NCBI GenBank assembly: GCA_017469425.1
Contig: JAFUGJ010000008.1
Coordinates: forward strand, 1-56,416
Origin: Bacteroidales bacterium
GTDB taxonomy: Bacteria > Bacteroidota > Bacteroidia > Bacteroidales > UBA932
DNA: 56,416 nt
Reading direction: 5' to 3'
The notes beneath the pieces are model-generated. The model ran no database searches. It saw only the letters and a program-made list of their open reading frames with translations, and was not told the DNA's origin. Shown piece after piece: positions 638-11,806 of the stretch. The translations under genes were made by a program, and so were the position numbers. The first letter of the stretch is position 1, and the number at the start of each line of letters is the position of its first letter.

Positions 638-3025
638 TTATTCTTTCTTCAGCTCTGCCGCCGGATTGGTCCGGGCCGCTTTGAGGGTCTGCCAGAGGAC
701 GGTCCCGAACGCTATGGCCAGCGAAATCATGGCAGCCAGCACAAACACCCATCCGTAGCCTTCAATCCGGTAGGTAAAGCGCTCCAGATAAAGCCCTGCG
801 CTCCAGATGGCCAGTGGAATTCCGACGAGGCATGCCGCGCCCACGAGCACCATATAACTTTGAACATTCCGCCATGTTTCGTGCCTCACATCGGAACCGA
901 ATACCTTCCGCACCGCAATCTGCCTGGTATTTTCATCGGCAAAATAGGTGCTCATGGCGAGCAGTCCGAGCAGGGAAATGAGTACGGCGAGAACCGCGAA
1001 GAGTTCCACTAGGTGCAATGTCCTCCGGACCGGTGCCAGCTGCTTGCGGTTCAACTCCCGGACAAAGCCGTAATTCCATGCAGGTTCTTCCACTCCGGCG
1101 GTTTCCAGGCGATAGTCACGGTAGGCATCAAGGATTTGCCGTTCATAGGATTTGTCTTCATCCGTCGTGCCAATAAGAAGGCAGTTGGCGTAGTTCAGTT
1201 CTTCAGGTCTGGTGACGATGACGGCCCCGTTGGGATTCTGCTCCACATCGGATGCCGGACGGGCGGGGAAATCGGCAAAGGTGCCGCCGATGAACTCGGG
1301 CTTCGAGCCGTTTACATTGATTCTTCGCGGGAAAACTGTGCTGGTGTCCGAGACGCCTGCCGCGTTGAAGGCCGATTCGCTCATCCAGATGGAATGCACG
1401 AGCGGGTGGCCGAAGTCCTGCTGAAGCTCCAGGCCCAGAAGCCGGAAATATGTTGAATCGCAGAGAATCATGGGCATGCTCACATCGTGTTCCTCGTCCA
1501 CCCGCACACCCATGGTCATGTTTATAAGGCCCGGAAGGCCGCGTCCTACGCCCACTTTCTTTACGAAGGAGAGTTGCTCCACCTTGTCTTTGAAGAGCTT
1601 CATCATGTCGTAATCGCGGGCGCTGTATTCAATATAGTACAAGTTGTCCACGGATGCATGGGAGGGCCTTGTGAGCATGTGCCGCATCTGCACTTCCATT
1701 ACAAGGGCTACGGCAATGAGAAACACCGAAAGGATGTTCTGCACCACGATGAATACCTTGCTCAGTACCATTTTATTCCGTCGCCGCAGTGCGCCTTTGA
1801 TGACATCTATGGGCTCGTAGCGGGAAGCGGTGAGTGCAGGCAGCAGTCCGCTCAGTGCCCCGAGGGCCAGGATGGCCAGGGCATAAGCGCCGATGTAGCC
1901 AGGGCTCATGCGAAGGGAAATGCTCACGCCGGTATCTTCGAGGCCCAGAATGGCGTCGGTGGGATTGCTCGTTGTCACCAGGGCGTTCATCATGGGAACG
2001 AGCCACCATGCTAACAGTAGTGCTGCGGCAAAGCATACGGCGGTGAAGGCCACGGATTCGCCGATGTATTTCCAGAGGATGGCGGTTTTGTCGGCCCCGA
2101 GAAGGCGCCGGGTGGCCATTTCCTTGGCCCGCTTGCCGGTGAGGGCGAGGGTCAGGTTCACATAGTTGAAGACAGCCGAGAGCAGCAGAAGCAGCACCAC
2201 CACCGCGAGGAGCCGGAGCATCCGGCGGTTGCCCTGACGGAAGATGCCATTGCTGTTTCCGGCGTCGAAGAAGGCTTCGTCCAAGCGGAAGGCACGCCAG
2301 GCGTCTACCCGCTCCGGACCCCAGGGGCTGTCGTAGTTTTTGTGCAGGAGGGTCTGCACTTTGGCCTTCACATCGGAAAGGTCTGCATCGCCGCGCACGC
2401 GAAAACAGGTGGTATAAGAGCCGATGCTGCCAAAGTTCTTGTCCTCTGTGGCGGCCCAGCTGTCGGCAATGTTCGTAATCACATCGAAGGGCAGTACAAG
2501 CGTGCCGTCAAAATCGGCATATACGCCCTTGATGATGTGCTCCGATTCGTTTACTGTGAGACTGCGCCCTATGAGGTCCTGCCCGGCACTGTCGGAGATG
2601 CGTTTTGCGAGGGATTCGCTGATGAGGATATCGGTTTTCCCGACGAAGTCCTCCAGGTTTCCCGCAACAAGGTGATATTCGGGGAAAACGCGGAAGAAAT
2701 CGGCATCGGCCTCCATGCCGTTCACTTGGAACAGGGTTTCTCCCACAAGGGTGGTGGGCTTCCAAAGATAGCTTAGGTGCGTGGCGGCTTCCACCTCGGG
2801 GATGTCCATCTCAAGTTCTTCCTTGTCCCAGTATGTGAGCCCCAGAAAATCGGGAGTGCCCAGCACGAAGGTCCGTTTCCATTCGGGGGACTCATGCGCC
2901 ACCTCGTACTGCTGCACCACATACGAGCCGATGAGTATGACAAACGCCAGGCTCACCGCCAGCCCCGCCGCCTCGATGGCGGTGTAGAGCTTGTTCCGGG
3001 AGAGGAATTTCAGGTAAGATTTCAT
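638..3025 (-). CDS. ABC transporter permease, MacB_PCD/FtsX family
   Basis: 795 residues. The order is an N-terminal transmembrane segment (about 17-37), a long periplasmic MacB_PCD-like region, three membrane segments around 275-405 (FtsX domain), a second periplasmic region, and a C-terminal FtsX domain with three membrane segments (about 680-785) ending in 'KAARTNPAAELKKE'. This duplicated FtsX layout is the usual permease of Bacteroidota macrolide/lipid efflux operons. The first 30 residues are almost identical to those of the next gene upstream (3027-5324), so the two are recent paralogues or have undergone gene conversion. Only one base separates them, so they are co-transcribed and probably translationally coupled. 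It should work with the ATPase at 5393-6073. The substrate is unknown. Confidence 0.88.
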   Translation of the reverse strand: MKSYLKFLSRNKLYTAIEAAGLAVSLAFVILIGSYVVQQYEVAHESPEWKRTFVLGTPDFLGLTYWDKEELEMDIPEVEAATHLSYLWKPTTLVGETLFQVNGMEADADFFRVFPEYHLVAGNLEDFVGKTDILISESLAKRISDSAGQDLIGRSLTVNESEHIIKGVYADFDGTLVLPFDVITNIADSWAATEDKNFGSIGSYTTCFRVRGDADLSDVKAKVQTLLHKNYDSPWGPERVDAWRAFRLDEAFFDAGNSNGIFRQGNRRMLRLLAVVVLLLLLSAVFNYVNLTLALTGKRAKEMATRRLLGADKTAILWKYIGESVAFTAVCFAAALLLAWWLVPMMNALVTTSNPTDAILGLEDTGVSISLRMSPGYIGAYALAILALGALSGLLPALTASRYEPIDVIKGALRRRNKMVLSKVFIVVQNILSVFLIAVALVMEVQMRHMLTRPSHASVDNLYYIEYSARDYDMMKLFKDKVEQLSFVKKVGVGRGLPGLINMTMGVRVDEEHDVSMPMILCDSTYFRLLGLELQQDFGHPLVHSIWMSESAFNAAGVSDTSTVFPRRINVNGSKPEFIGGTFADFPARPASDVEQNPNGAVIVTRPEELNYANCLLIGTTDEDKSYERQILDAYRDYRLETAGVEEPAWNYGFVRELNRKQLAPVRRTLHLVELFAVLAVLISLLGLLAMSTYFADENTRQIAVRKVFGSDVRHETWRNVQSYMVLVGAACLVGIPLAIWSAGLYLERFTYRIEGYGWVFVLAAMISLAIAFGTVLWQTLKAARTNPAAELKKE

Positions 3026-3026
3026 A

Positions 3027-5324
3027 CTACTCTTTTTTCAGTTCTGTTGCCGGATTGGTCCGGGCCGCCTTCAGCACCTGCCAGATGACGGAGGCAAAAG
3101 CAATGACGCCGGAAAGGAGCACGGCCACCACGAAAATCCACCAGTAGCCTTCCAGCTTGTAAATGAAGTCTTTAAGGTATTCCTGCGCCGCATAAACGGC
3201 GACGGGTATGCCGATAAGGCAGGCGATGCCGACAAGCACCATATAGTCCAGGATGGTTCTCCAAGCCTCCGTGTCCACCGTTCCGCCGAAGACTTTCCGG
3301 ACGGCAATGTCGCGTGATTTCTCATCGGCATAATAAGTGCTCATGGCCACCAGGCCCAGCAGGGCGATGATAATGGATAGGAGCATAAAGATTTCCACCA
3401 GCCTCATGTTGTTGCGGGCCGGCTTCCACGCCTCCGCTATGTTTTCGTCAACCCAGAAGGCTAAACTCCCGTAAATCGGCTTGCCTTTGATGTAATTCTC
3501 GTAGGTTTCCATGATCTGGGCTTTCGCCTCTTTCCTGTCCGGGGTGGTTTCAATGACCCACCCGGCGAAAGGAATGTCCTCGGAACGCATCAGAGAAACG
3601 ATGGCATAGTCTTCTTCTCCCATATTGGCGTTGTTGGTGGGGAAAGATTTAAAGACTCCGGCAACCTGTTCGCAACCCTTTGTTCGTTGGCTCAGCGTGC
3701 TGCTGATGTCGTGATTGTCGGAATCGAAACCGGTAGCGGCAAAACTCTTGTCCGAGAACCATACGCTATTGAATTGCGGTGCGTGGAAGTCTTCCAGTAT
3801 CTCAAATCCGAACATCGAAAAAGCGGTACTGTCCAAGCGCATCAGTTTGTAGAGGATATCCTGTCCTTCCCGGGTGGTGCTGTACTGGCCCATATTGATA
3901 CTGCCGGGCACTCCCGAACTCCTTCCAATCCGTTTTACACAGGGAAGCGCTTCCAGGGCATCTTTCAAAGGCGCACCGTCCTCACCGGAAAAATCCTTAA
4001 GAAAGAAAATGTTCTCGATGTTGCAGTTCATCGGCCGCTGCTGTGTCTTTCGCATCTGCGCCTCCATCGTGATGGCCAGCGCTATAAGGATAACAGCCAA
4101 TGCGTTCTGTAGTACGATGAAAACCTTGCTGAACACCATTTTGCTCTTGCGCCGATACCCGCCTTTCATCACATCCACCGCTTTGTATCGGCCTGCCATG
4201 AGGGCCGGGAAAATGCCGCAGAGCGCTCCCACAAGCAGGGTGATGACGATATATGTCATTACATACCCCGGAGACCAGATGACGCATATCGGGATATCAG
4301 GATTATTCAAAAGTGCATTCATGGCCGGGCAGAAAGCTTCTGCGAGCAATAGGCCGGCCGCAAAGCAAACTGCGGTAAACGCGATGGACTCGGCCACATA
4401 CTTCCCGATGATGCCGCCCCTGGATGCTCCGGAGATCTGCCTCACGGCCATTTCCTTTGCCCTTTTTCCGGTGAGTGCGACGGACAGGTTGACATAGTTC
4501 AGAATGGCGGACAATAGGAGCAGGAGCCCGACCAGCATCAGAATCCTGAGCGTCGCCTTGTCTCCATGCCGGAAAAATCCCTCAGTATCCTTGAAAAACA
4601 ATTCGTCGTAACGCGAAAGTTCCAGATGTTCAAAGAAATACTGCCCATAGATACCTGAATAGACATCTTTGCAAACGGCTTCCAATTTGTCATACAGGAC
4701 TTTCCTGTCTGTTCCGGGACGGACTCTTATCAGCGTGACCGTACTGCCATAGTTGTCGAATGGCTGCCAGTTGCCTTTGTAAACAGCGGCATTGCGGAAT
4801 ATTTCATAAGGTATGACGACCGTGCCTTTCAGGTCCTCCAATATGGCACCGACGGTATATCTGCTGCCGCTGATGTCAAGAGCATCACCTACCGAAAGAT
4901 TGTGTTTTTTGGCGAAGGAATCCGAAATGATAACATTGGACGGAACGGAAAGTACATCCGCGGAGCCCTCCAAAAATCGGAATTGAGGACAGATTTCAAA
5001 GAACTCCGGTTCCACGCCGACACTCTCCGCATCCGTCTGCTCTCCCCGAATGACAGGATGTACCGCCACATTGCACATTCTGGAAACGGACTCAATTTCC
5101 GGAATATCTCCGATGGCATCCGGGAAACCGTATGTAAGCGCTGGGTAAGCCGGTAATCCTGGCACATAGACTCTTTCCTGGTCCGGGTGTTCCTGTGTCA
5201 CCGAGAACTGCTGCCACACATAGCTGCCGATGAGTATGACAAATGCCAGGCTCACCGCAAGTCCCACCGCCTCGATGGCAGTGTACAGCTTGTTGCGGGA
5301 GAGGAATTTTAGGTAACTTTTCAT
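3027..5324 (-). CDS. ABC transporter permease, MacB_PCD/FtsX family
   Basis: 765 residues with the same plan as its downstream paralogue: an N-terminal membrane anchor (MKSYLKFLSRNKLYTAIEA), a periplasmic MacB_PCD-like region, a first FtsX block near 260-400, a second periplasmic part, and a C-terminal FtsX block with 'RDIAVRKVFGG', a motif typical of the coupling helix region, ending 'RTNPATELKKE'. It follows the ATPase gene; the short gap between them (5325-5392) is filled by two REP-like hairpins. In the family such permeases move substrates from the periplasm or inner membrane to the TolC channel by a mechanotransmission cycle. Here that role is inferred from context. Confidence 0.88.
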   Translation of the reverse strand: MKSYLKFLSRNKLYTAIEAVGLAVSLAFVILIGSYVWQQFSVTQEHPDQERVYVPGLPAYPALTYGFPDAIGDIPEIESVSRMCNVAVHPVIRGEQTDAESVGVEPEFFEICPQFRFLEGSADVLSVPSNVIISDSFAKKHNLSVGDALDISGSRYTVGAILEDLKGTVVIPYEIFRNAAVYKGNWQPFDNYGSTVTLIRVRPGTDRKVLYDKLEAVCKDVYSGIYGQYFFEHLELSRYDELFFKDTEGFFRHGDKATLRILMLVGLLLLLSAILNYVNLSVALTGKRAKEMAVRQISGASRGGIIGKYVAESIAFTAVCFAAGLLLAEAFCPAMNALLNNPDIPICVIWSPGYVMTYIVITLLVGALCGIFPALMAGRYKAVDVMKGGYRRKSKMVFSKVFIVLQNALAVILIALAITMEAQMRKTQQRPMNCNIENIFFLKDFSGEDGAPLKDALEALPCVKRIGRSSGVPGSINMGQYSTTREGQDILYKLMRLDSTAFSMFGFEILEDFHAPQFNSVWFSDKSFAATGFDSDNHDISSTLSQRTKGCEQVAGVFKSFPTNNANMGEEDYAIVSLMRSEDIPFAGWVIETTPDRKEAKAQIMETYENYIKGKPIYGSLAFWVDENIAEAWKPARNNMRLVEIFMLLSIIIALLGLVAMSTYYADEKSRDIAVRKVFGGTVDTEAWRTILDYMVLVGIACLIGIPVAVYAAQEYLKDFIYKLEGYWWIFVVAVLLSGVIAFASVIWQVLKAARTNPATELKKE

Positions 5325-5326
5325 AT

Positions 5327-5394
5327 AGATTCTTCGGTTGCCTTTGGCTCCCTCAGAATGACAACACTGTCATCCTGAGCAAAGCGAAGGATCT
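5327..5394. repeat. Pair of REP-like hairpins in opposite orientation
   Basis: One copy (5327-5363) begins AGATTCTTCGG and ends CAGAATGACA. The second (5366-5394) is inverted, TGTCATCCTGAG to GAAGGATCT. The last CTA is also the stop codon (TAG on the minus strand) of the ATPase gene. The pair fills the gap between the ATPase and the next permease. Confidence 0.9.
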
Positions 5395-6073
5395 ATAATT
5401 CATTCTTCACATCTGAAACAATCTGCCCGTCAAACAGGTCAATTGTGCGCTGCGCCTGTGCGGCATCCTTTTGGCTGTGGGTCACCATCACGATGGTGGT
5501 TCCTTCCTGGTTGAGTTCCTTGAGCAGATCCATCACTTCCTTGCCGTTCTTGGAGTCGAGGTTACCGGTAGGCTCATCCGCCAGAATCAGCTTAGGGCCA
5601 GCAACGACGGCACGGGCGATGGCAACCCTCTGCTGCTGACCGCCGGAAAGTTGCTGCGGGAAGTGCTGCGCGCGGTGGCTGATGTTCATCCGCTTCATGA
5701 TGTCCGTTACTTTCTGCTTGCGCTCTGAGGCGCTGATGTTGAGGTAGCGAAGGGGGAGCTCGATGTTCTCATAGACATTCAGTTCGTCAATCAGGTTGAA
5801 ACTCTGGAACACAAAGCCGATGTTGCCCTTTCGGAACTTTGTGCGCTCCTTCTCCTTGAGGTTCGCCACTTCGGTATCCAAAAGTTTATATGAACCGCCG
5901 GAAGGATTGTCCAGCAGGCCCAGGATGTTCAGTAGCGTGGACTTGCCGCAGCCCGAAGGCCCCATGATGGCAACGAACTCGCCGTCCTTGATTTCAAAAG
6001 AAACGCCATTCAGCGCCGTGGTCTCGATTTCTTCCGTCCGGAAGATTTTGGAAAGATTGTTTACAGTAATCAT
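5393..6073 (-). CDS. ABC transporter ATP-binding protein (MacB/LolD-like)
   Basis: 226 residues, the usual size for a stand-alone LolD/MacB-type ATPase. Visible motifs: Walker A GPSGCGKST (about 38-46), Q-loop 'FVFQSFNLI', signature LSGGQQQR (about 142-149), Walker B 'LILADEPTGNLDS', and switch histidine in 'MVTHSQ'. It supplies energy to the permeases at 6175-8523, 3027-5324, 638-3025 and probably 1-612. It sits in the middle of the operon, with REP-like repeats on both sides. The stop codon TAG overlaps the repeat boundary. The start ATG at 6073 gives MITVNNLSKIF, a normal N terminus. Confidence 0.95.
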   Translation of the reverse strand: MITVNNLSKIFRTEEIETTALNGVSFEIKDGEFVAIMGPSGCGKSTLLNILGLLDNPSGGSYKLLDTEVANLKEKERTKFRKGNIGFVFQSFNLIDELNVYENIELPLRYLNISASERKQKVTDIMKRMNISHRAQHFPQQLSGGQQQRVAIARAVVAGPKLILADEPTGNLDSKNGKEVMDLLKELNQEGTTIVMVTHSQKDAAQAQRTIDLFDGQIVSDVKNEL

Positions 6074-6110
6074 AATTTATTGTATATTAATTTGTTTATT
6101 ACTTCTCTTT

Positions 6111-6176
6111 TAGATTCTTCGCTCTGCTCAGAATGACAGCCGTTTTGTCATTCTGAGGGCGAAGCCCGAAGAATCT
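6111..6176. repeat. Pair of REP-like hairpins in opposite orientation
   Basis: Copy one (6112-6138) runs AGATTCTTCGC to CAGAATGACA. Copy two (6146-6176) is inverted, TGTCATTCTGAGGGC to GAAGAATCT, with an inner GGGC/GCCC stem. The CTA at its edge is the stop codon of the upstream permease (6175-6177). Confidence 0.9.
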
Positions 6177-8523
6177 ATTCATTTTTCAACGATTCAACCG
6201 GGTTGGCATTGGCCGCTCTCCAGCTTTGGAGCGTGACAACAGCCAGTGTAATGGCGGCGACCAGTAGCAGTGCCACCACAAATATCCACACCGGGATGGG
6301 TGCCTGGTAAGCAAAGCCTTTGCGCCACACCGACATAACCCAGTATGCAAATGGAGCGGCCACAGCAAAGCTGACAACGGCCATTACCAGATACTTCTTG
6401 TTAATCATCTGAAGGATGCTTCCTACGGTAGCGCCGTTTACCCGCCGCACGGCAATTTCCTTGCGGAGGAACTGGGTTTCAAAGAATACCAGGCCGATGA
6501 TGCCGATGATGGCAATGAGCAGGGCCACAATGGAGGCGGTAGTGATGAGTTTGCCAAGCGACACCTCGCTCTGATACATATTCTCAATCCATTCGTCCAG
6601 ATGACGAACGGCCACCTGGTCGGGTTCACGGGTGGGGTCGTAGGTGCAGACAACTTCTTTGATGTGAGACGATACCTCTTTGAAATCGGCCCCGGGAGCC
6701 GTCTTGACATACATCACGCTGAAATTGCGCCACTGCGTCTTTCCCCAATTATAAAGCACCAGCGGCCCCATGGGATGCTTCAAAGACTTGAAATTGAAGT
6801 CCTTTACGATGCCCACAATCTCGGCATCGTCCACATGGCCACCCATGAAGCTGCCCACATGATACTGAGGGAAACTCTGGATAAAGGTCTCGTTGGCGAT
6901 GAAGCACCCTGCATGGCTCTGATTGTCATACTCCATGAAATCCCGTCCGTCCACTATTTGAAGGCCGAAGAATCTTACGAAGTTGTCTGCAACCGGAAGC
7001 ACTTCCATGAACACCTGCTTTCCGTCATCTCCCGTTCTTCCCCAACCCATCTTCTGGTCGGATACAATCAGATTGTCGGCAAAGGTTACATCCACGATGG
7101 ACGGGTTCTGAAGCAGTTTGTCTTTCACAGCATCGTGCGCTCCACCGGCGTAGTAGCCGCACCACACTTGAAGGATATTCTCCTGCGGAAATCCCATGTC
7201 CTTGCTGGCCATGAACCTGGTCTGCACATTCACATACAGCGCCATCAGGATGAACACGAAGGAAAGGATGAACTGTAGGGCAACCAGGGCACTGCGCAGG
7301 CTGCGACCTTTCACGCTGGTTCCGTAAGAGCCTTTGAGCACCAATGCGGCAGGCTGGGATGTGGAATAGAGGGCTGGAGCAATACCGGCAGCCACCGCAG
7401 AAAGAAGGGCGATACCCAGCGTAATGGCCAGAATGCCGATATTATCCTTCAGTGCGATGGAATCCGAAACATACGATGCCCAGGAGGTTCCACTCACCAC
7501 ATGGACAATCAGGCAGGCCAGAGCAAAAGCTACCAGAGCGATAAGTCCTGCATTCAGCAGCTGCCTGCCGATAAGCGACCCGCGTCCTTCGCCCAGGACT
7601 TTCCGGGTATTGATGCCCTTGATCCGGAACGGAATCTCCGCAAAGGCGAAGTTTATGAAATTGATGATGGCAATGAGAATCAGCAATAGGGAGATGATTG
7701 ACAGCGTGACGGTTATTGGCCTGCTGGCGGCTACAATATTTGCCTTGACATCCCGCTCAAAATGCGCATCGTGCAGCTTGCTTATTCGGAATCCGCTTCT
7801 CATCCCGACCAGTTCTTCCGAGTCCACTTCGTCGGAGAAGTACGCCATAAATGCTTCGAGCATGGCATTTTCAGTCTCTTTGGCCCTGGAAGGGTCATTC
7901 AGTTTCAGATAAGAAACATATGACCATTCGAAATCATCATCTATAAATTCGTTTCCAATATTCGTGAAGATGCCATAATGCAAGCTGAAATTGCGCGGTG
8001 TGTTCTTATAAACGCCTATGATGCGGGCCGAAATGCCGTCTCCCGTCTGGAGGACCTTGCCGACAGCGCTCTCGTTTCCGAATATCAAGTTTGCGAATGT
8101 TTCATTGAGAACCGCCGTTCCCGGGGCTGTGAATTCCCGGGCCGAACCTTCTACCCATTCGAAAGGGAACACGGAGAACATGGTGCTGTCTATCTTTGCA
8201 GACGAAACGGTAATGGCCGATTCTTTCCCGCCTTCGCGATAATACACCTGTTCGCCCAGGTAACTAAGTGTTCCCACAGCCTCGATATTCGGACTTGCTT
8301 TCCGGACTGTCTCAATCATCGGTCTGCTTAGCCAGGTTGAGAACGGACCGTCATCTATCCAATTGTTCTCCATTCGGAACACCTGCTCGTGTCCGTCGAA
8401 ATTCTTATCATAGGAAGCATCCCACTTCACCTGCACCATCAGAATCATCGCCGCGGCAAACGCCACACTCATTCCCAGCACATTAATCAGCGTCGAAACG
8501 CCAGTCTTTCTAAATACTTTCAT
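6175..8523 (-). CDS. ABC transporter permease, MacB_PCD/FtsX family
   Basis: 782 residues. It begins MKVFRKTGVSTLINVLG with a membrane segment at about 10-30. A MacB_PCD-like periplasmic domain follows, then a first FtsX block (about 275-405), a second periplasmic part, and a C-terminal FtsX block with 'RKEIAVRRVNGATVG', ending 'NANPVESLKNE'. It is more divergent from the two other complete permeases than they are from each other, so the operon holds at least two permease subtypes, which could form a heterodimer with one ATPase dimer. It is preceded by the HlyD-like adaptor and separated from it by the antisense GIY-YIG gene and its repeats. The substrate cannot be read from the sequence. Confidence 0.88.
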   Translation of the reverse strand: MKVFRKTGVSTLINVLGMSVAFAAAMILMVQVKWDASYDKNFDGHEQVFRMENNWIDDGPFSTWLSRPMIETVRKASPNIEAVGTLSYLGEQVYYREGGKESAITVSSAKIDSTMFSVFPFEWVEGSAREFTAPGTAVLNETFANLIFGNESAVGKVLQTGDGISARIIGVYKNTPRNFSLHYGIFTNIGNEFIDDDFEWSYVSYLKLNDPSRAKETENAMLEAFMAYFSDEVDSEELVGMRSGFRISKLHDAHFERDVKANIVAASRPITVTLSIISLLLILIAIINFINFAFAEIPFRIKGINTRKVLGEGRGSLIGRQLLNAGLIALVAFALACLIVHVVSGTSWASYVSDSIALKDNIGILAITLGIALLSAVAAGIAPALYSTSQPAALVLKGSYGTSVKGRSLRSALVALQFILSFVFILMALYVNVQTRFMASKDMGFPQENILQVWCGYYAGGAHDAVKDKLLQNPSIVDVTFADNLIVSDQKMGWGRTGDDGKQVFMEVLPVADNFVRFFGLQIVDGRDFMEYDNQSHAGCFIANETFIQSFPQYHVGSFMGGHVDDAEIVGIVKDFNFKSLKHPMGPLVLYNWGKTQWRNFSVMYVKTAPGADFKEVSSHIKEVVCTYDPTREPDQVAVRHLDEWIENMYQSEVSLGKLITTASIVALLIAIIGIIGLVFFETQFLRKEIAVRRVNGATVGSILQMINKKYLVMAVVSFAVAAPFAYWVMSVWRKGFAYQAPIPVWIFVVALLLVAAITLAVVTLQSWRAANANPVESLKNE

Positions 8524-8539
8524 ATCTTTGTACTTATCC

Positions 8540-8570
8540 TGTCATTCTGAGGGCGCAGCCCGAAGAATCT
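8540..8570. repeat. REP-like hairpin upstream of the GIY-YIG gene
   Basis: A single copy from TGTCATTCTGAGGGC to GAAGAATCT with inner stem GGGC/GCCC and outer stem ATTCT/AGAAT. It lies 13 bases before the GIY-YIG start codon and is inverted relative to the copy that follows that gene. Confidence 0.9.
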
Positions 8571-8583
8571 AATTAATTTAACC

Positions 8584-8865
8584 ATGTATAACACTTATTA
8601 CACTTACATAATGTCCAGTGGAAACAACACGACTCTGTACATTGGCGTCACCAACGATTTGGAAAGAAGAGTTGCAGAGCATAAGTCTGGACAGGGTTCC
8701 ATTTTTACAGCAAAATATCATTGTCATAAACTTGTGTACTATGAATCTTTCTCTGATATTGATCAGGCAATTGCTCGAGAAAAGCAGCTCAAGGGTTGGA
8801 AACGAGAAAGGAAGGATGCATTGATTGATTCTGTTAATAAGGAACGGATTGATTTATTGCCATAG
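8584..8865 (+). CDS. Small GIY-YIG nuclease (YhbQ/UvrC N-terminal-like), bracketed by REP-like repeats
   Basis: 93 residues, a stand-alone GIY-YIG domain. Visible: the first strand 'YYTYIMSS', the second 'LYIGVTNDLERRVAEHK' with the catalytic-type tyrosine and arginine, and 'AIAREKQLKGW' holding the conserved glutamate. No DNA-binding domain is attached. The family cuts DNA; known members act in repair (UvrC), homing introns and some restriction enzymes, while the small stand-alone forms have poorly defined roles. It is the only gene on the plus strand in an otherwise minus-strand operon. It is preceded by an inverted REP-like copy (8540-8570), and its TAG stop runs straight into direct copies (8864-8951). 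This suggests a mobile unit in which the nuclease may mobilise the repeat, analogous to RAYT transposases with REP sequences; that part is inference. Confidence 0.9.
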   Translation: MYNTYYTYIMSSGNNTTLYIGVTNDLERRVAEHKSGQGSIFTAKYHCHKLVYYESFSDIDQAIAREKQLKGWKRERKDALIDSVNKERIDLLP

Positions 8866-8951
8866 ATTCTTCATTTCATTCAGAATGACAGATTCTTCGC
8901 TTCGCTCAGAATGACAGCAACTGTCATCCTGAGGGCGCAGCCCGAAGGATT
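8864..8951. repeat. Cluster of three REP-like hairpins
   Basis: Two direct copies (8864-8890 and 8890-8916), both ending CAGAATGACA, then an inverted copy (8922-8951) TGTCATCCTGAGGGC to GAAGGATT. The left edge overlaps the TAG stop of the GIY-YIG gene and the right edge touches the TAA stop of the HlyD-like gene on the other strand. Confidence 0.9.
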
Positions 8952-10207
8952 TAAAATACCAACACATCTGAATCCCCGTAGGTTTCGTACCCGGAGGTGA
9001 TGACCTTCTCGCCAGGCTCCAGGCCATCCAGCACCTCGTAGTACTGCGGATTCTGGCGTCCGATGCGAATCTCTCTCTTGACGGCCTTGCTGCCCTCTTT
9101 GTTAAGCACATAAATCCATTTCCCGCCGGTTTTCTGGTAGAAGGTGCCGCGCGGGATGATGACGGCTTCTTCGCTCTGGCCCAGCTGAAGGTTCAGGTAG
9201 TAGGTCTGGCCGCTGCGGATGTTGTCGGGCTGCACGCCGTCAAACTTGAAATCGGCCTTGAACTTGCCGTCTCGCACCTCCGGGTACACCTTGCGGATGC
9301 TGGTGGAATATGTTTCTCCCTGACGCTCGAAAGTGGCCTCCAGGCCCGCCACCACGCGGTCGATGTAGTGTTCGTCTATCTGTGCTTCTACTTTGTAGAC
9401 GCCAACGCTGTTGATTTGCCCAATCTTGGTTCCGCTGGCAATGCTCTGGCCAAGGACTACATCCAGAAGGCCCAGTTCGCCGTCAATCGGCGCCTTCACG
9501 ATAAGGTTACTCTTGCGCTTGCGAATCATCTGCATGTTGAGGAGCATATTGTCCAGGCTCTCCTCCATGCGGTCAATCTGCGTGCCGCGATAGAGGCTGT
9601 CCTGCCTGGAACGCTCGCGGATAAGTTCGTATTTCTGCCTCGACAGTTTATAGTCTTCCTCGGCTTTCAGGTAGTCTTCGCGGGCGATGAGTTTGTCTTC
9701 GTAGAGAGCCTTCTGCTGCTCATAGGCGCGGCGCAGACGCTCCACCTGGGTGCCATACTCCAGCTCGTTCTGCCGCACATCCAGTTTCTGCTGCTCCATC
9801 TGAATCTGCGTGTTGCGAAGGATGTTCTCCTTTTCTGCCAGTTCAGCCTCGGAATTCAGAATCTGGAGGTCCAGATTGTCGTTGTTCAAAATCAGGATGG
9901 GGTCTCCGGCCTTCACCATTGAGCCTTCCTCGATGAGGATGGTCTGCACGATGCCTCCTTCCTGTGGCGAAAGCTGGATGGTTGTCATCGGCTGCACCCG
10001 TCCGCTGATGCGGATATAGTCGTTGAATTCGCCCTTTTCGGCATTGGCGACGGTGATGGAGTCTCTATCCACCCGCAGCGTCTTGTTGTTCGGACGCACA
10101 ATCAAATACACGATAAACACTGCCAGCAGCGCACCCAGCCAATAGGGGAGAGCCCGTTTGGTGAATGCCACACGCCAACCTGTTTTCTTCTCGATAATCT
10201 TGTCCAT
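8951..10207 (-). CDS. Periplasmic adaptor (HlyD/MacA-type membrane fusion protein)
   Basis: 418 residues. A short cytoplasmic N terminus is followed by one membrane anchor (about 24-42, LGALLAVFIVYLIVR). Next come a lipoyl-like half domain ('GRVQPMTTIQLSPQEGG'), a long alpha-helical hairpin rich in E, Q, K and R (about 110-225, coiled coil), the returning lipoyl half ('IVKAPIDGELGLL'), and beta-barrel and membrane-proximal domains ('IIPRGTFYQKTGGKWIYVLN'). It bridges the inner-membrane ABC permeases to the TolC-like channel encoded just upstream. The gap to that gene is filled by REP-like repeats. The size and domain order match the MacA/HlyD family. Its substrate is unknown. Confidence 0.93.
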   Translation of the reverse strand: MDKIIEKKTGWRVAFTKRALPYWLGALLAVFIVYLIVRPNNKTLRVDRDSITVANAEKGEFNDYIRISGRVQPMTTIQLSPQEGGIVQTILIEEGSMVKAGDPILILNNDNLDLQILNSEAELAEKENILRNTQIQMEQQKLDVRQNELEYGTQVERLRRAYEQQKALYEDKLIAREDYLKAEEDYKLSRQKYELIRERSRQDSLYRGTQIDRMEESLDNMLLNMQMIRKRKSNLIVKAPIDGELGLLDVVLGQSIASGTKIGQINSVGVYKVEAQIDEHYIDRVVAGLEATFERQGETYSTSIRKVYPEVRDGKFKADFKFDGVQPDNIRSGQTYYLNLQLGQSEEAVIIPRGTFYQKTGGKWIYVLNKEGSKAVKREIRIGRQNPQYYEVLDGLEPGEKVITSGYETYGDSDVLVF

Positions 10208-10220
10208 ATCGTTTATTATT

Positions 10221-10343
10221 TAGATTCTTCGCTTAACAGATTCTTCGCTTCGCTCAGAATGACATTAGAGTTGCTCATAATGACAATGTGCTCGGACTGA
10301 CAAGGGGCTGTCATTCTGAAGGAGCGTAGCGACTGAAGAATCT
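10221..10343. repeat. REP-like repeat cluster between the TolC-like and HlyD-like genes
   Basis: A truncated copy (10221-10236), a full copy (10238-10264, ending CAGAATGACA), degenerate tails ('TGCTCATAATGACA'), then an inverted copy (10310-10343) TGTCATTCTGAAGGAGCG to GAAGAATCT. The terminal CTA is the stop codon of the TolC-like gene. Confidence 0.85.
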
Positions 10344-11760
10344 ATTGGTTAATATATTCTACTCCGCTATAATATCTTACTACCGCCTGCTTGATGAGAT
10401 ACTTGAACAGGCTGTTCATCTCGTCCGCCTGAGCCTTCAGGTAATTGTTGCTTGCCGTCTGGAACTCCAGCGGGGAGATGAGCCCCTGCTCCAGTTTCTT
10501 GAGGTTCAGCGTATAGGCTTCGGCCTGCACTTCGGCCTTGCGCTGGGCCTGCTGGTATGCAGTGGCGCTTCCGTCGCGGTCCTGGATGGCCCTTCTTACT
10601 TCTGATTCCACATCCCTGCGTTTCTGGTCGAGTTCTGCCGTAGCTTTTTCGAATGCATTGCGCTTCCGGGATACTCTCGAATGCCCTTGCAAGCGGTTGA
10701 AGATGGGAAGCGTCAAAGCCAGTTCGACATATTCACCGCCGTTGTTCTTGAACTGGTCGCGGAAGATGGCCGTTTCGGAGCCTTGGTAGGTGTAGTAACT
10801 GGTGCTCCAGCCCGCATACAGGCCCACAGTAGGGAGCAACTGCCATTTGGCCGTATTCAGCTCCCGTCGTGCGTTCAGCTGCTTCCAGGAGGCAATCTGT
10901 ATGCCCGGATTGTGCTCCAGAGCGAAGTCTACGATAGATTCTTCGCTACCGCTCAGAATGACAGATGGGCCGCTCAGAATGACAGAGGGGTTGTTCAGAA
11001 TGACAGAGGGGTTGATCTGAGTGGCAGAATTGTCATCCTGAGCGTCAGCGAAGGATCTATAATCTGTCACTATCGTAAGTTCCTCATCCATCGGCCAGAA
11101 CATCAGGTCGGCCAGCGTCATCTTCTGGTCCTGATACATATTGTATGTATTCGTGAGGTCATACTGACGGTCGGCCAAATCGGCCTCCATCTGGATGACA
11201 TCAGCATGGCCTTTCTGGCCCAATTCCTCCTGCCTGCGCGCCTTGGTCAGTGCCTGCTCAGCCGTGGCCACTTGTTCCTCATATACATCGTATAGCCGTT
11301 TGTAGTAAACCACATTGTAGTAGGCTTCCATCACCGCCAGACAGATATCGGCTTCCACCTGTTTCTCCTGCGAGTCTGCAATCAGCATCCCTGTCTTGGA
11401 TATACGGTAGTTGTTCACCGCTTGGAAGCCGTTGAAAAGGTCATATCCTGCCGACACGCCATAGTTGTTGTGGAACGATGTCGTGTTGAAGTATGTGTTG
11501 GTCTGAGGGTCAATGCTTCGGCCAAAGTTATAGTATGCGTAGGTCTGAGCATTGATTTGGGGCGTGAACAGCGCCAGCGCCGCATCCCTCCGGTCAATCT
11601 GTGCATCGCCGATGGCCGCCTGCTGAATGCGGATTTTGGTGGAATTGGAGACTGCGTAGCGCATGCAATCCTTAAGTGACATTGCAGTCTGGCCGCTGGC
11701 ACACACTGTCACAGCGGATGCCAGCACCGGAACTGCCAATTTAATGAAAAGTAGTTTCAT
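10342..11760 (-). CDS. TolC-family outer membrane efflux protein, carrying an in-frame REP insertion
   Basis: 472 residues. A signal peptide of about 23 residues (ends 'TVCASG') is followed by two OEP repeats of the TolC family: residues about 27-225 ('LKDCMRYAVSNSTKIR', 'AYYNFGRSIDPQTNTY') and about 280-470 ('ALEHNPGIQIASWKQLNARREL'). TolC-type proteins trimerise into an outer-membrane barrel with a periplasmic helical tunnel. It is the first gene of the efflux operon, behind a likely sigma-54 promoter. Between the two OEP halves, residues about 234-276 are coded by REP-like repeats (PSVIL appears three times), a low-complexity segment the family does not have. The insert keeps the frame, so the protein may still work with a loose linker near the inter-repeat junction. 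Confidence 0.92.
   Translation of the reverse strand: MKLLFIKLAVPVLASAVTVCASGQTAMSLKDCMRYAVSNSTKIRIQQAAIGDAQIDRRDAALALFTPQINAQTYAYYNFGRSIDPQTNTYFNTTSFHNNYGVSAGYDLFNGFQAVNNYRISKTGMLIADSQEKQVEADICLAVMEAYYNVVYYKRLYDVYEEQVATAEQALTKARRQEELGQKGHADVIQMEADLADRQYDLTNTYNMYQDQKMTLADLMFWPMDEELTIVTDYRSFADAQDDNSATQINPSVILNNPSVILSGPSVILSGSEESIVDFALEHNPGIQIASWKQLNARRELNTAKWQLLPTVGLYAGWSTSYYTYQGSETAIFRDQFKNNGGEYVELALTLPIFNRLQGHSRVSRKRNAFEKATAELDQKRRDVESEVRRAIQDRDGSATAYQQAQRKAEVQAEAYTLNLKKLEQGLISPLEFQTASNNYLKAQADEMNSLFKYLIKQAVVRYYSGVEYINQ
10933..11059. repeat. REP-like repeat cluster inserted in frame in the tolC-like gene
   Basis: Starts ATAGATTCTTCGCTAC, continues with three tail units of the form CAGAATGACAGA(T/G)GGG, and closes with an inverted copy TGTCATCCTGAGCG to GAAGGATCT. 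Length modulo three and absence of stops preserve the coding frame of the host gene. Confidence 0.88.
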
Positions 11761-11790
11761 ATAGTTTATTGTTTAACTGCGGCGAAAACC

Positions 11791-11806
11791 TTCACTCTTC
11801 GTGCCA
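11791..11806 (-). promoter_or_regulatory. Likely sigma-54 promoter of the efflux operon
   Basis: On the minus strand TGGCACG (11806-11800) is a perfect -24 element. With correct spacing the -12 position reads GTGAA (11795-11791), against the ideal TTGCA. It lies about 30 bases upstream of the tolC-like start codon. A sigma-54 activator is encoded nearby (17430-18812), which supports the call. Confidence 0.6.

Follow-up and report, generated by a model that had tools for sequence, protein, structure and literature searches.

A small nuclease gene between repeats

The DNA analysed here (the window, 56,416 nucleotides) is the whole of contig C98 in a draft genome of 2.53 Mb from a Bacteroidales bacterium. 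Between two genes of an operon lies a gene for a small nuclease, bracketed by copies of a short palindromic repeat, and further copies of the repeat stand elsewhere in the operon. The features are the following:

5327..5394, unstranded: bare head-to-head repeat dimer in an ATPase/permease gene gap
6112..6176, unstranded: bare head-to-head repeat dimer in a permease/ATPase gene gap, absent in the relatives G084 and G034
6175..8523, minus strand: FtsX/MacB-like permease gene, one operon neighbour, named by ORF reading
8524..8950, unstranded: whole cassette, in whose place the sister species G084 has three bases (GCG) at a clean junction
8540..8570, plus strand: upstream repeat TGTCATTCTGAGGGCGCAGCCCGAAGAATCT, TGTC tag pointing outward from the gene, 13 bases from the ATG
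8584..8865, plus strand: stand-alone GIY-YIG nuclease gene, 93 aa, antisense to the operon (ORF list and profile match)
8864..8890, minus strand: first downstream repeat, TGTC tag pointing outward from the gene
8890..8916, minus strand: second downstream repeat, head-to-head partner of the copy at 8922-8952
8922..8952, plus strand: third downstream repeat, in the orientation of the upstream copy, whose end coincides with the HlyD-like stop codon
8951..10207, minus strand: HlyD-like membrane fusion gene, the other operon neighbour, named by ORF reading
10222..10343, unstranded: bare repeat array in the TolC-like/HlyD-like gap (dimer at 10238-10343), absent in G084
10936..11058, unstranded: repeat array within the TolC-like ORF, in frame

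The 93-residue GIY-YIG gene proposed by a first, sequence-only reading of this DNA is borne out by the open reading frame at 8584-8865 (plus strand), whose product matches the PF01541 profile in a profile search (E 1.6e-17). PF01541 is present in 60/60 members of alignment A2, into which 59 of the best 80 homologue loci were taken, and among these 60 aligned proteins Y19, G21, R29, H33, E66, and N85 are invariant and Y8 nearly so; a further alignment, A1, holds 14 of the 23 homologue matches from the window's taxonomic family. The predicted structure (mean pLDDT 96.0) has UPF0213 protein BH0048, Slx1, and a UvrC domain as its nearest solved folds, and the window protein has its fold in common with UPF0213 proteins, the UvrC N-domain, and Slx1. 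The host genome contains two PF01541 matches, the window gene and a 611-aa frame of a length fitting UvrC, and only one repeat-gene-repeat unit. Other identities were considered and rejected: a homing endonuclease in an intron or intein, as the gene sits between two operon genes; a plasmid gene, as homologues occur in 33 of 72,556 plasmid records, several of them of chromosome size; a phage gene (3 of 50,697 phage records); and a known structured RNA, as no Rfam family rose above threshold over positions 5000-11800.

The same reading had described an inverted copy 13 bases upstream of the gene, downstream copies edged on its TAG stop, and stems with arms ATTCT/AGAAT and GGGC/GCCC or GC/GC. All of this agrees with what we found: the upstream copy occupies 8540-8570 before the ATG at 8584, the AG of the stop is the AG of the first downstream repeat (8864-8890), and predicted folds of single-stranded DNA pair ATTCT with AGAAT outside and GGGC with GCCC, or GC with GC, inside. 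The bare copies announced for the other operon gaps are likewise present as dimers (5325-5392, 6074-6174, and 10208-10341); two permease genes that meet at 3025/3027 leave no gap for repeats. In the bare arrays the repeat tails point outward, and the tail supplies or overlaps the TAG stops at 5393, 6175, and 10342.

The full repeat pattern occurs 23 times (22 distinct copies) in the 2.53 Mb and its reversed control not at all. Eleven of the 22 distinct copies fall within 5.7 kb (C98:5327-11058), where an even spread would give about 0.05; the copy at 8922-8952 deviates from the full pattern and is excluded from the 22. One varying stem position is compensated throughout these copies, with T..A in 18 and C..G in 4, under a search pattern that tolerated mismatches at that position. 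Against shuffled sequences, the predicted folding advantage is large for head-to-head dimers (z -6.3, -5.7), modest for the two GGGC copies (z -2.1, -2.2), and nil for a lone short-type copy (z 0.03). More repeats, some of them degenerate, are visible at about 30-185, near the left contig end, and the contig may end there due to repeats. Within the TolC-like ORF, the array at 10936-11058 is translated in frame into a peptide with SVILNNPSVILSGPSVILSGSEES; it is missing from G084, and the TolC-like gene of G034 carries a different CGTC-type hairpin (GTCATCCCCGG..) in the same place.

Flanking hairpins are a trait of the protein family

Homologues of the window protein occur in 21 of the 199 genomes of its taxonomic family, flanked there by other palindromes such as TTCCGA..GGAATCT, TTGCGAG..GAAGCAATC, GCCGG.., and CCTGAAC... 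A strict detector (GTCAT, three bases, a loop of 3-40, the complement of the three, AT) finds a hairpin at 13/17 of these family loci, a count that leaves out L034 and L048-L052, which are near a contig end, broken, or partial. A broad scan with one genome per species provided 578 loci, the best 80 of which were used; they come from 21 named phylum-level groups and 4 unranked records, and hairpins are found in 19 of the 21 groups.

That the gene is flanked by repeats more often than chance, a claim offered as checkable in the sequence-only reading, was upheld among these best 80 of 578 loci, to which all counts in this paragraph refer. A GTCAT hairpin lies within 300 bp on either side at 68/80, with an upstream hairpin at 57/80 and a downstream one at 60/80 (79 loci have at least 100 bp upstream), against 1-8 of 80 positive for eight altered tags, 122 of 2844 positive single distal 300-bp tiles, and, for random control placements (n=11031) of a block as long as the gene within these loci, 4.8% upstream, 4.9% downstream, and 0.3% on both sides. 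Hairpin density falls from 8.15/kb at 0-100 bp to 0.17/kb at 7-10 kb. An outward-facing pair brackets 40/80 genes vs 0.09% of control placements, and an inward pair 13/80 vs 0.20%; the nearest tag points outward in 42/57 upstream and 48/60 downstream cases, and on both sides in 30/49. The two sides have an equal 3-nt arm at 37/49 loci (shuffle mean 6.8, maximum 16). A motif-free test gave inverted likeness of the flanks above the 99th percentile of controls at 45/79 loci, and direct-repeat likeness at 37/79. A chance origin of the repeat-gene layout was rejected by the pattern controls, the altered-tag controls, and the control placements.

Homologues without neighbouring repeats, which the sequence-only reading would have counted against itself, do exist as a minority: 12/80 (best 80 of 578), 10/41 in the comparison of paralogues given below, and 4/17 in the taxonomic family lack a strict match. 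At least 7 of the 12 detector-negative loci among the best 80 show variant hairpins by eye, so that 68/80 is a low count. The repeat-gene-repeat layout is a family trait. At L031, L034, L037, and L044 the downstream repeat, as read by eye, encodes the last residues of the GIY-YIG protein.

Paralogues, stems, and co-varying residues

We searched 45 of the genomes from which the best 80 of 578 loci came for further homologues. Hairpins flank 31 of 41 close homologues (taken from 93 matches at E 1e-20 or better, some of them genes already among the best 80 of 578), in contrast with only 3 of 19 small GIY-YIG genes that are more distant and resemble UPF0213, drawn from 30 weaker matches in these genomes; the flanks appear fortuitous at L228 among the 31 and at L266 and L270 among the three. 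This same-genome contrast led us to reject genome-wide hitch-hiking, and the 3/19 an association with small GIY-YIG proteins at large. Paralogues have different stems in 9 of the 12 genomes with at least two flanked genes, as in G214, where three copies have three stems; the exceptions are G237 (stems alike), G217 (mixed), and G215 (second hairpin doubtful).

On the protein tree, the 3-base arm requires 49 changes (shuffle mean 64.5, minimum 57) and the TGC type 7 (mean 20.9, minimum 17); the count for the first stem base taken singly, 25 (mean 28.3, minimum 23), is not beyond shuffles. With the co-varying columns removed, the arm still takes 50 changes (mean 64.6, minimum 59) and the TGC type 12 (mean 20.9, minimum 15). 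The columns that co-vary most strongly with the stem correspond to window residues 72, 71, 76, and 73, which the structural model places in the turn joining the final two helices and immediately beyond it. For residues 71-72, which were chosen from the same data that they describe, a small residue 72 (G/S/C/A) is found at 18/23 TGC-arm loci vs 1/74 other loci, the TGC arm accompanies 18/19 proteins with a small residue 72 vs 5/78 others, and, where residue 72 is W, G71 is accompanied by arms that end in CT (10/14 vs 5/57 others). The window protein, with G71-W72 and arm TCT, agrees with the latter trend. A phylogenetic control for residue 72 yielded 5 supported contrasts, of which about 3 agree and 0 oppose (p 0.25), and shared ancestry is not fully excluded as the source of the co-variation. 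Judging from these sequence comparisons, it is well supported that the nuclease would recognise the stem of its own repeat.

Sites without the unit and a dispersed unit in Mesorhizobium

Empty sites in relatives, which the sequence-only reading had recommended looking for, turned up as three clean unit-free junctions in G084, a sister species of the same genus whose genes mostly show about 83% likeness to those of the window (the permease 71%) and whose whole genome is without the repeat pattern. Alignment of its operon with that of the window gives five differences, each equal to a repeat array. Besides the cassette, the clean cases are the array at 10221-10340, where the flanking alignments join at one base, and 6107-6174. 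Two sites are less clean: G084 carries 58 other bases at the TolC-like array (10936-11058), and it is devoid of the 5327-5394 dimer, but the next gene after the ATPase gene differs. After this ATPase gene G084 has another CGTC-like hairpin type (GATGCCCGG..GGCATGACG; L100, about 7660-7700), and elsewhere in its genome a GIY-YIG copy of its own (L044, C9:104797-105051) with repeats tagged CTCAT, not GTCAT.

The HlyD-like gene is conserved at 90-92% identity in G084, G103, G034, and G014. In G034, which belongs to another genus, a 77-79% identical nuclease gene follows the same HlyD stop and is bracketed alike, in reversed orientation with respect to the window, that is, with the operon, and a different permease comes next. 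G014 has the arrangement of G034 minus the cassette, its stop codon being followed by GCG and the ATG of the next gene. The difference between G034 and the window would be accounted for by two separate insertions at the same site or by an inversion. By eye we noticed no target-site duplication at the window sites, for which the comparison is with a G084 sequence only about 83% alike; with one genome per species, gain and loss of the unit are indistinguishable.

In Mesorhizobium, repeat, gene, and repeat make up a dispersed unit of about 520 bp. Three genomes have 5-6 homologue matches each, some partial. In two of them (G243 and G235), the likeness between copies (77-90%) is confined to 516-544 bp in 19 of 20 pairs and extends over 609 bp in the remaining one; G226, the third genome, has six pairs that span 434-743 bp, with L287 a cut copy. 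The unit ends are the outer ends of two inverted repeats, (CT)TCGTCATTC..CCATGCCGTGAC, beyond which the flanks differ. A discrete gene-bearing unit with terminal inverted repeats and several copies per genome is an IS-like trait encountered in this genus. For one site, L281, the flank is present in 75/81 Mesorhizobium genomes, counting the one that carries L281; the comparison took in 19 loci from the others, twelve of them read base by base, wholly or in part. The full unit is present at L281, L303, L304, and L314; L299 has both repeats with the interior deleted, a gene-less unit; L296, L301, L305, L308, L309, and L312 have both flanks and no unit; and L297 and L298 show no unit in the inspected part of the site. 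Centred on the L281 unit itself (G235:C269), the flanks form an almost perfect inverted repeat of 25 bp, and L144 is similar. A palindromic target in general was not found, with inverted outer flanks (at least 10 of 15) at 4 of 40 loci.

Repeats without the gene

Presence of the gene predicts repeats nearby, but presence of repeats is no predictor of the gene. Of the 199 family genomes, 26 contain the TCTGA-type repeat, a few of them by a single, perhaps chance, match, and only 3 of the 26 (G000, G034, and G024) have the homologue, with another repeat type beside the gene in G024 and, in G034, just two full repeats across 2.7 Mb, each next to the gene. The genomes richest in repeats without a homologue contain 157 (G129), 118 (G189), and 37 copies, the first two being near-complete (98-99%). 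Within the family, the highest repeat numbers belong to genomes that lack the gene, and the situation that the sequence-only reading had named as contrary to its proposal, repeats equally frequent without the gene, appeared in part (23 of the 26 repeat genomes). In 17 of these 26 genomes, PF01541 matched, beyond the G034 and G024 genes, only frames of 498-623 aa, which by their length are taken to be UvrC, and one 170-aa frame. The latter, a weak GIY-YIG match in G129, was rejected as unrelated and has no full repeat within 250 bp on either side. The family profile at E up to 10 detected no further homologue in four of the richest genomes. Gene loss after the spread of the repeats is possible, as are assembly gaps at repeats; PMC3733652 describes loss after spread for REPtrons in E. 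coli.

Relation to known repeats and nucleases

A small GIY-YIG nuclease is said to have been linked to its multicopy repeats in a 2025 Nature Communications paper on Ssn proteins. In Neisseria, the Ssn family reportedly consists of site-specific single-stranded nucleases with NTS/dRS3 repeats and a role in DNA uptake and recombination, and its members are said to prefer single-stranded DNA. We take the window protein to be an Ssn-like nuclease, and the nuclease-repeat pairing as such presumably is already published as the Ssn family. A homologue from N. gonorrhoeae (43.5% identical, tblastn), which we assume to be the published Ssn protein, has hairpins CGTCATTCCCGC..GCGGGAATC beside it that are presumably dRS3, and the sequence of this homologue beside dRS3-type hairpins appears to tie the window and Ssn families together. 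One record, NZ_CP119140.1 (L294), is a 2.17-Mb N. gonorrhoeae sequence filed as a plasmid and evidently a chromosome, in which the homologue is unannotated. Like Ssn, the proteins studied here are small stand-alone GIY-YIG proteins with intact active residues and a cognate multicopy palindromic repeat; unlike the emphasis of the Ssn work, our case centres on a bracketed dispersed unit and unit-free sites.

The window repeat also resembles CGTC-tagged REPs (Di Nocera et al. 2013, PMC3733652), which that paper reports from Bacteroidetes and four other phyla, apparently without a dedicated transposase. The likeness extends to the unpaired CGTC/TGTC tag, the AT-first stem (TGTC-ATTCT..AGAAT), the predominance of head-to-head dimers, and the location after genes. 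The four published CGTC families are described there with a stem of 8-9 bp and a loop of 4-5 nt and most often a CCA tail (PMC3733652), whereas the window repeat has a 5 bp stem followed by an internal loop and a further 2 or 4 bp, and a CT tail; CCA tails do occur at some relatives' repeats. The window repeat is CGTC-like, outside the four published families, because its stem and tail depart from theirs. With REP/RAYT systems it has in common one nuclease gene flanked by palindromic repeats and many bare repeats elsewhere, but the enzyme is a GIY-YIG protein by profile and fold, not an HUH tyrosine transposase, and the tag is TGTC/CGTC, not GTAG. Our literature search for a pairing of GIY-YIG proteins with REP-like repeats found no paper, from which we do not claim absence from print. 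What appears to be added to the work on CGTC REPs and on Ssn is the dispersed bracketed unit, the unit-free sites, the paralogue-specific stems, and the signal at residues 71-73.

A candidate mobile unit and its alternatives

We consider it probable, with some reserve, that the gene and its two inverted TGTC hairpins form one small, IS-like mobile unit, similar to a REPtron and moved by an Ssn-like nuclease. The 93-aa protein would act as an Ssn-type, sequence-specific nuclease whose target is the stem of the repeat beside its own gene; this repeat would extrude as a hairpin on single-stranded DNA, the probable form of the substrate. Cuts beside the outward tags on both sides would release the unit or one of its strands; alternatively, cutting may provoke repair that copies the unit elsewhere. 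GIY-YIG enzymes cut DNA by hydrolysis, with no intermediate covalently bound to it, and, to our knowledge, none is a transposase; because no covalent link is kept, the host would have to rejoin the DNA, its ligase and repair enzymes completing the process. The head-to-head pairs in the other operon gaps would be gene-less derivatives, like REP/RAYT dimers. That the nuclease mobilises the repeats, that the window protein cuts the window repeat, and how the bare dimers arose and the units move are inferences from these comparisons. The analogy with REP/RAYT systems drawn by the sequence-only reading holds well outside the window too, for flanking, orientation, paralogue-specific repeats, co-variation, dispersed copies, and unit-free sites, and that reading as a whole is partly supported. 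A tentative extension, in which we believe a little less than we doubt it, is that small GIY-YIG nucleases and CGTC-like REPs constitute a transposase-less class of elements across many phyla, whose stem would be read via the 71-73 turn and whose movement would rely on hydrolysis and host repair.

The adjacency of the N. gonorrhoeae homologue to dRS3-type hairpins also agrees with an Ssn-type housekeeping nuclease that cuts the repeat in incoming or exposed single-stranded DNA, limiting or shaping uptake and recombination, and cognate pairing fits such a function equally well. The repeats would then be targets kept near the gene, and the gene would spread by ordinary recombination between repeats. 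We hold both propositions to be unlikely, as discrete units ending at repeat ends, the gene-less unit, and the unit-free sites are not explained by housekeeping itself, nor are several differently tuned copies per genome; uptake policing is compatible with cognate pairing and may be true alongside the mobile unit.

A homing-like spread, in which alleles with a repeat are cut by the nuclease and then converted during repair templated by a different repeat locus, the units passing from repeat to repeat, accounts for the clustering of repeats around the genes and in the window operon and for the coexistence of units and bare arrays. However, the unit-free sites in G084, G014, and L309, which are living relatives and not ancestors, hold no landing repeat, and we find this explanation quite improbable. 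Highly improbable, in our opinion, is that the repeats are or were long ago moved by another enzyme, with the gene a mere passenger landing in repeat-rich gaps. The abundance of repeats in genomes without the gene would suit a passenger, as would the apparent lack of a dedicated transposase for CGTC repeats in PMC3733652, but most other small GIY-YIG genes in these genomes are unflanked (3/19 vs 31/41), paralogues usually have different repeats, and residues of the last helix turn co-vary with the stem.

If the wider class of elements is real, its nucleases would be the missing mobilisers for CGTC REPs, dRS3, and probably related palindromic elements. The unit of gene and repeats may explain the spread of a common class of bacterial repeats. 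A cognate nuclease gene central to discrete units makes the transposase question of the CGTC REPs directly testable. The correspondence between the stem and a few protein residues suggests a readable specificity code that could help to design site-specific single-stranded DNA nucleases. Finally, the insertions in tight operon gaps and in the TolC-like gene of the window illustrate how such units may reshape the genes that surround them.
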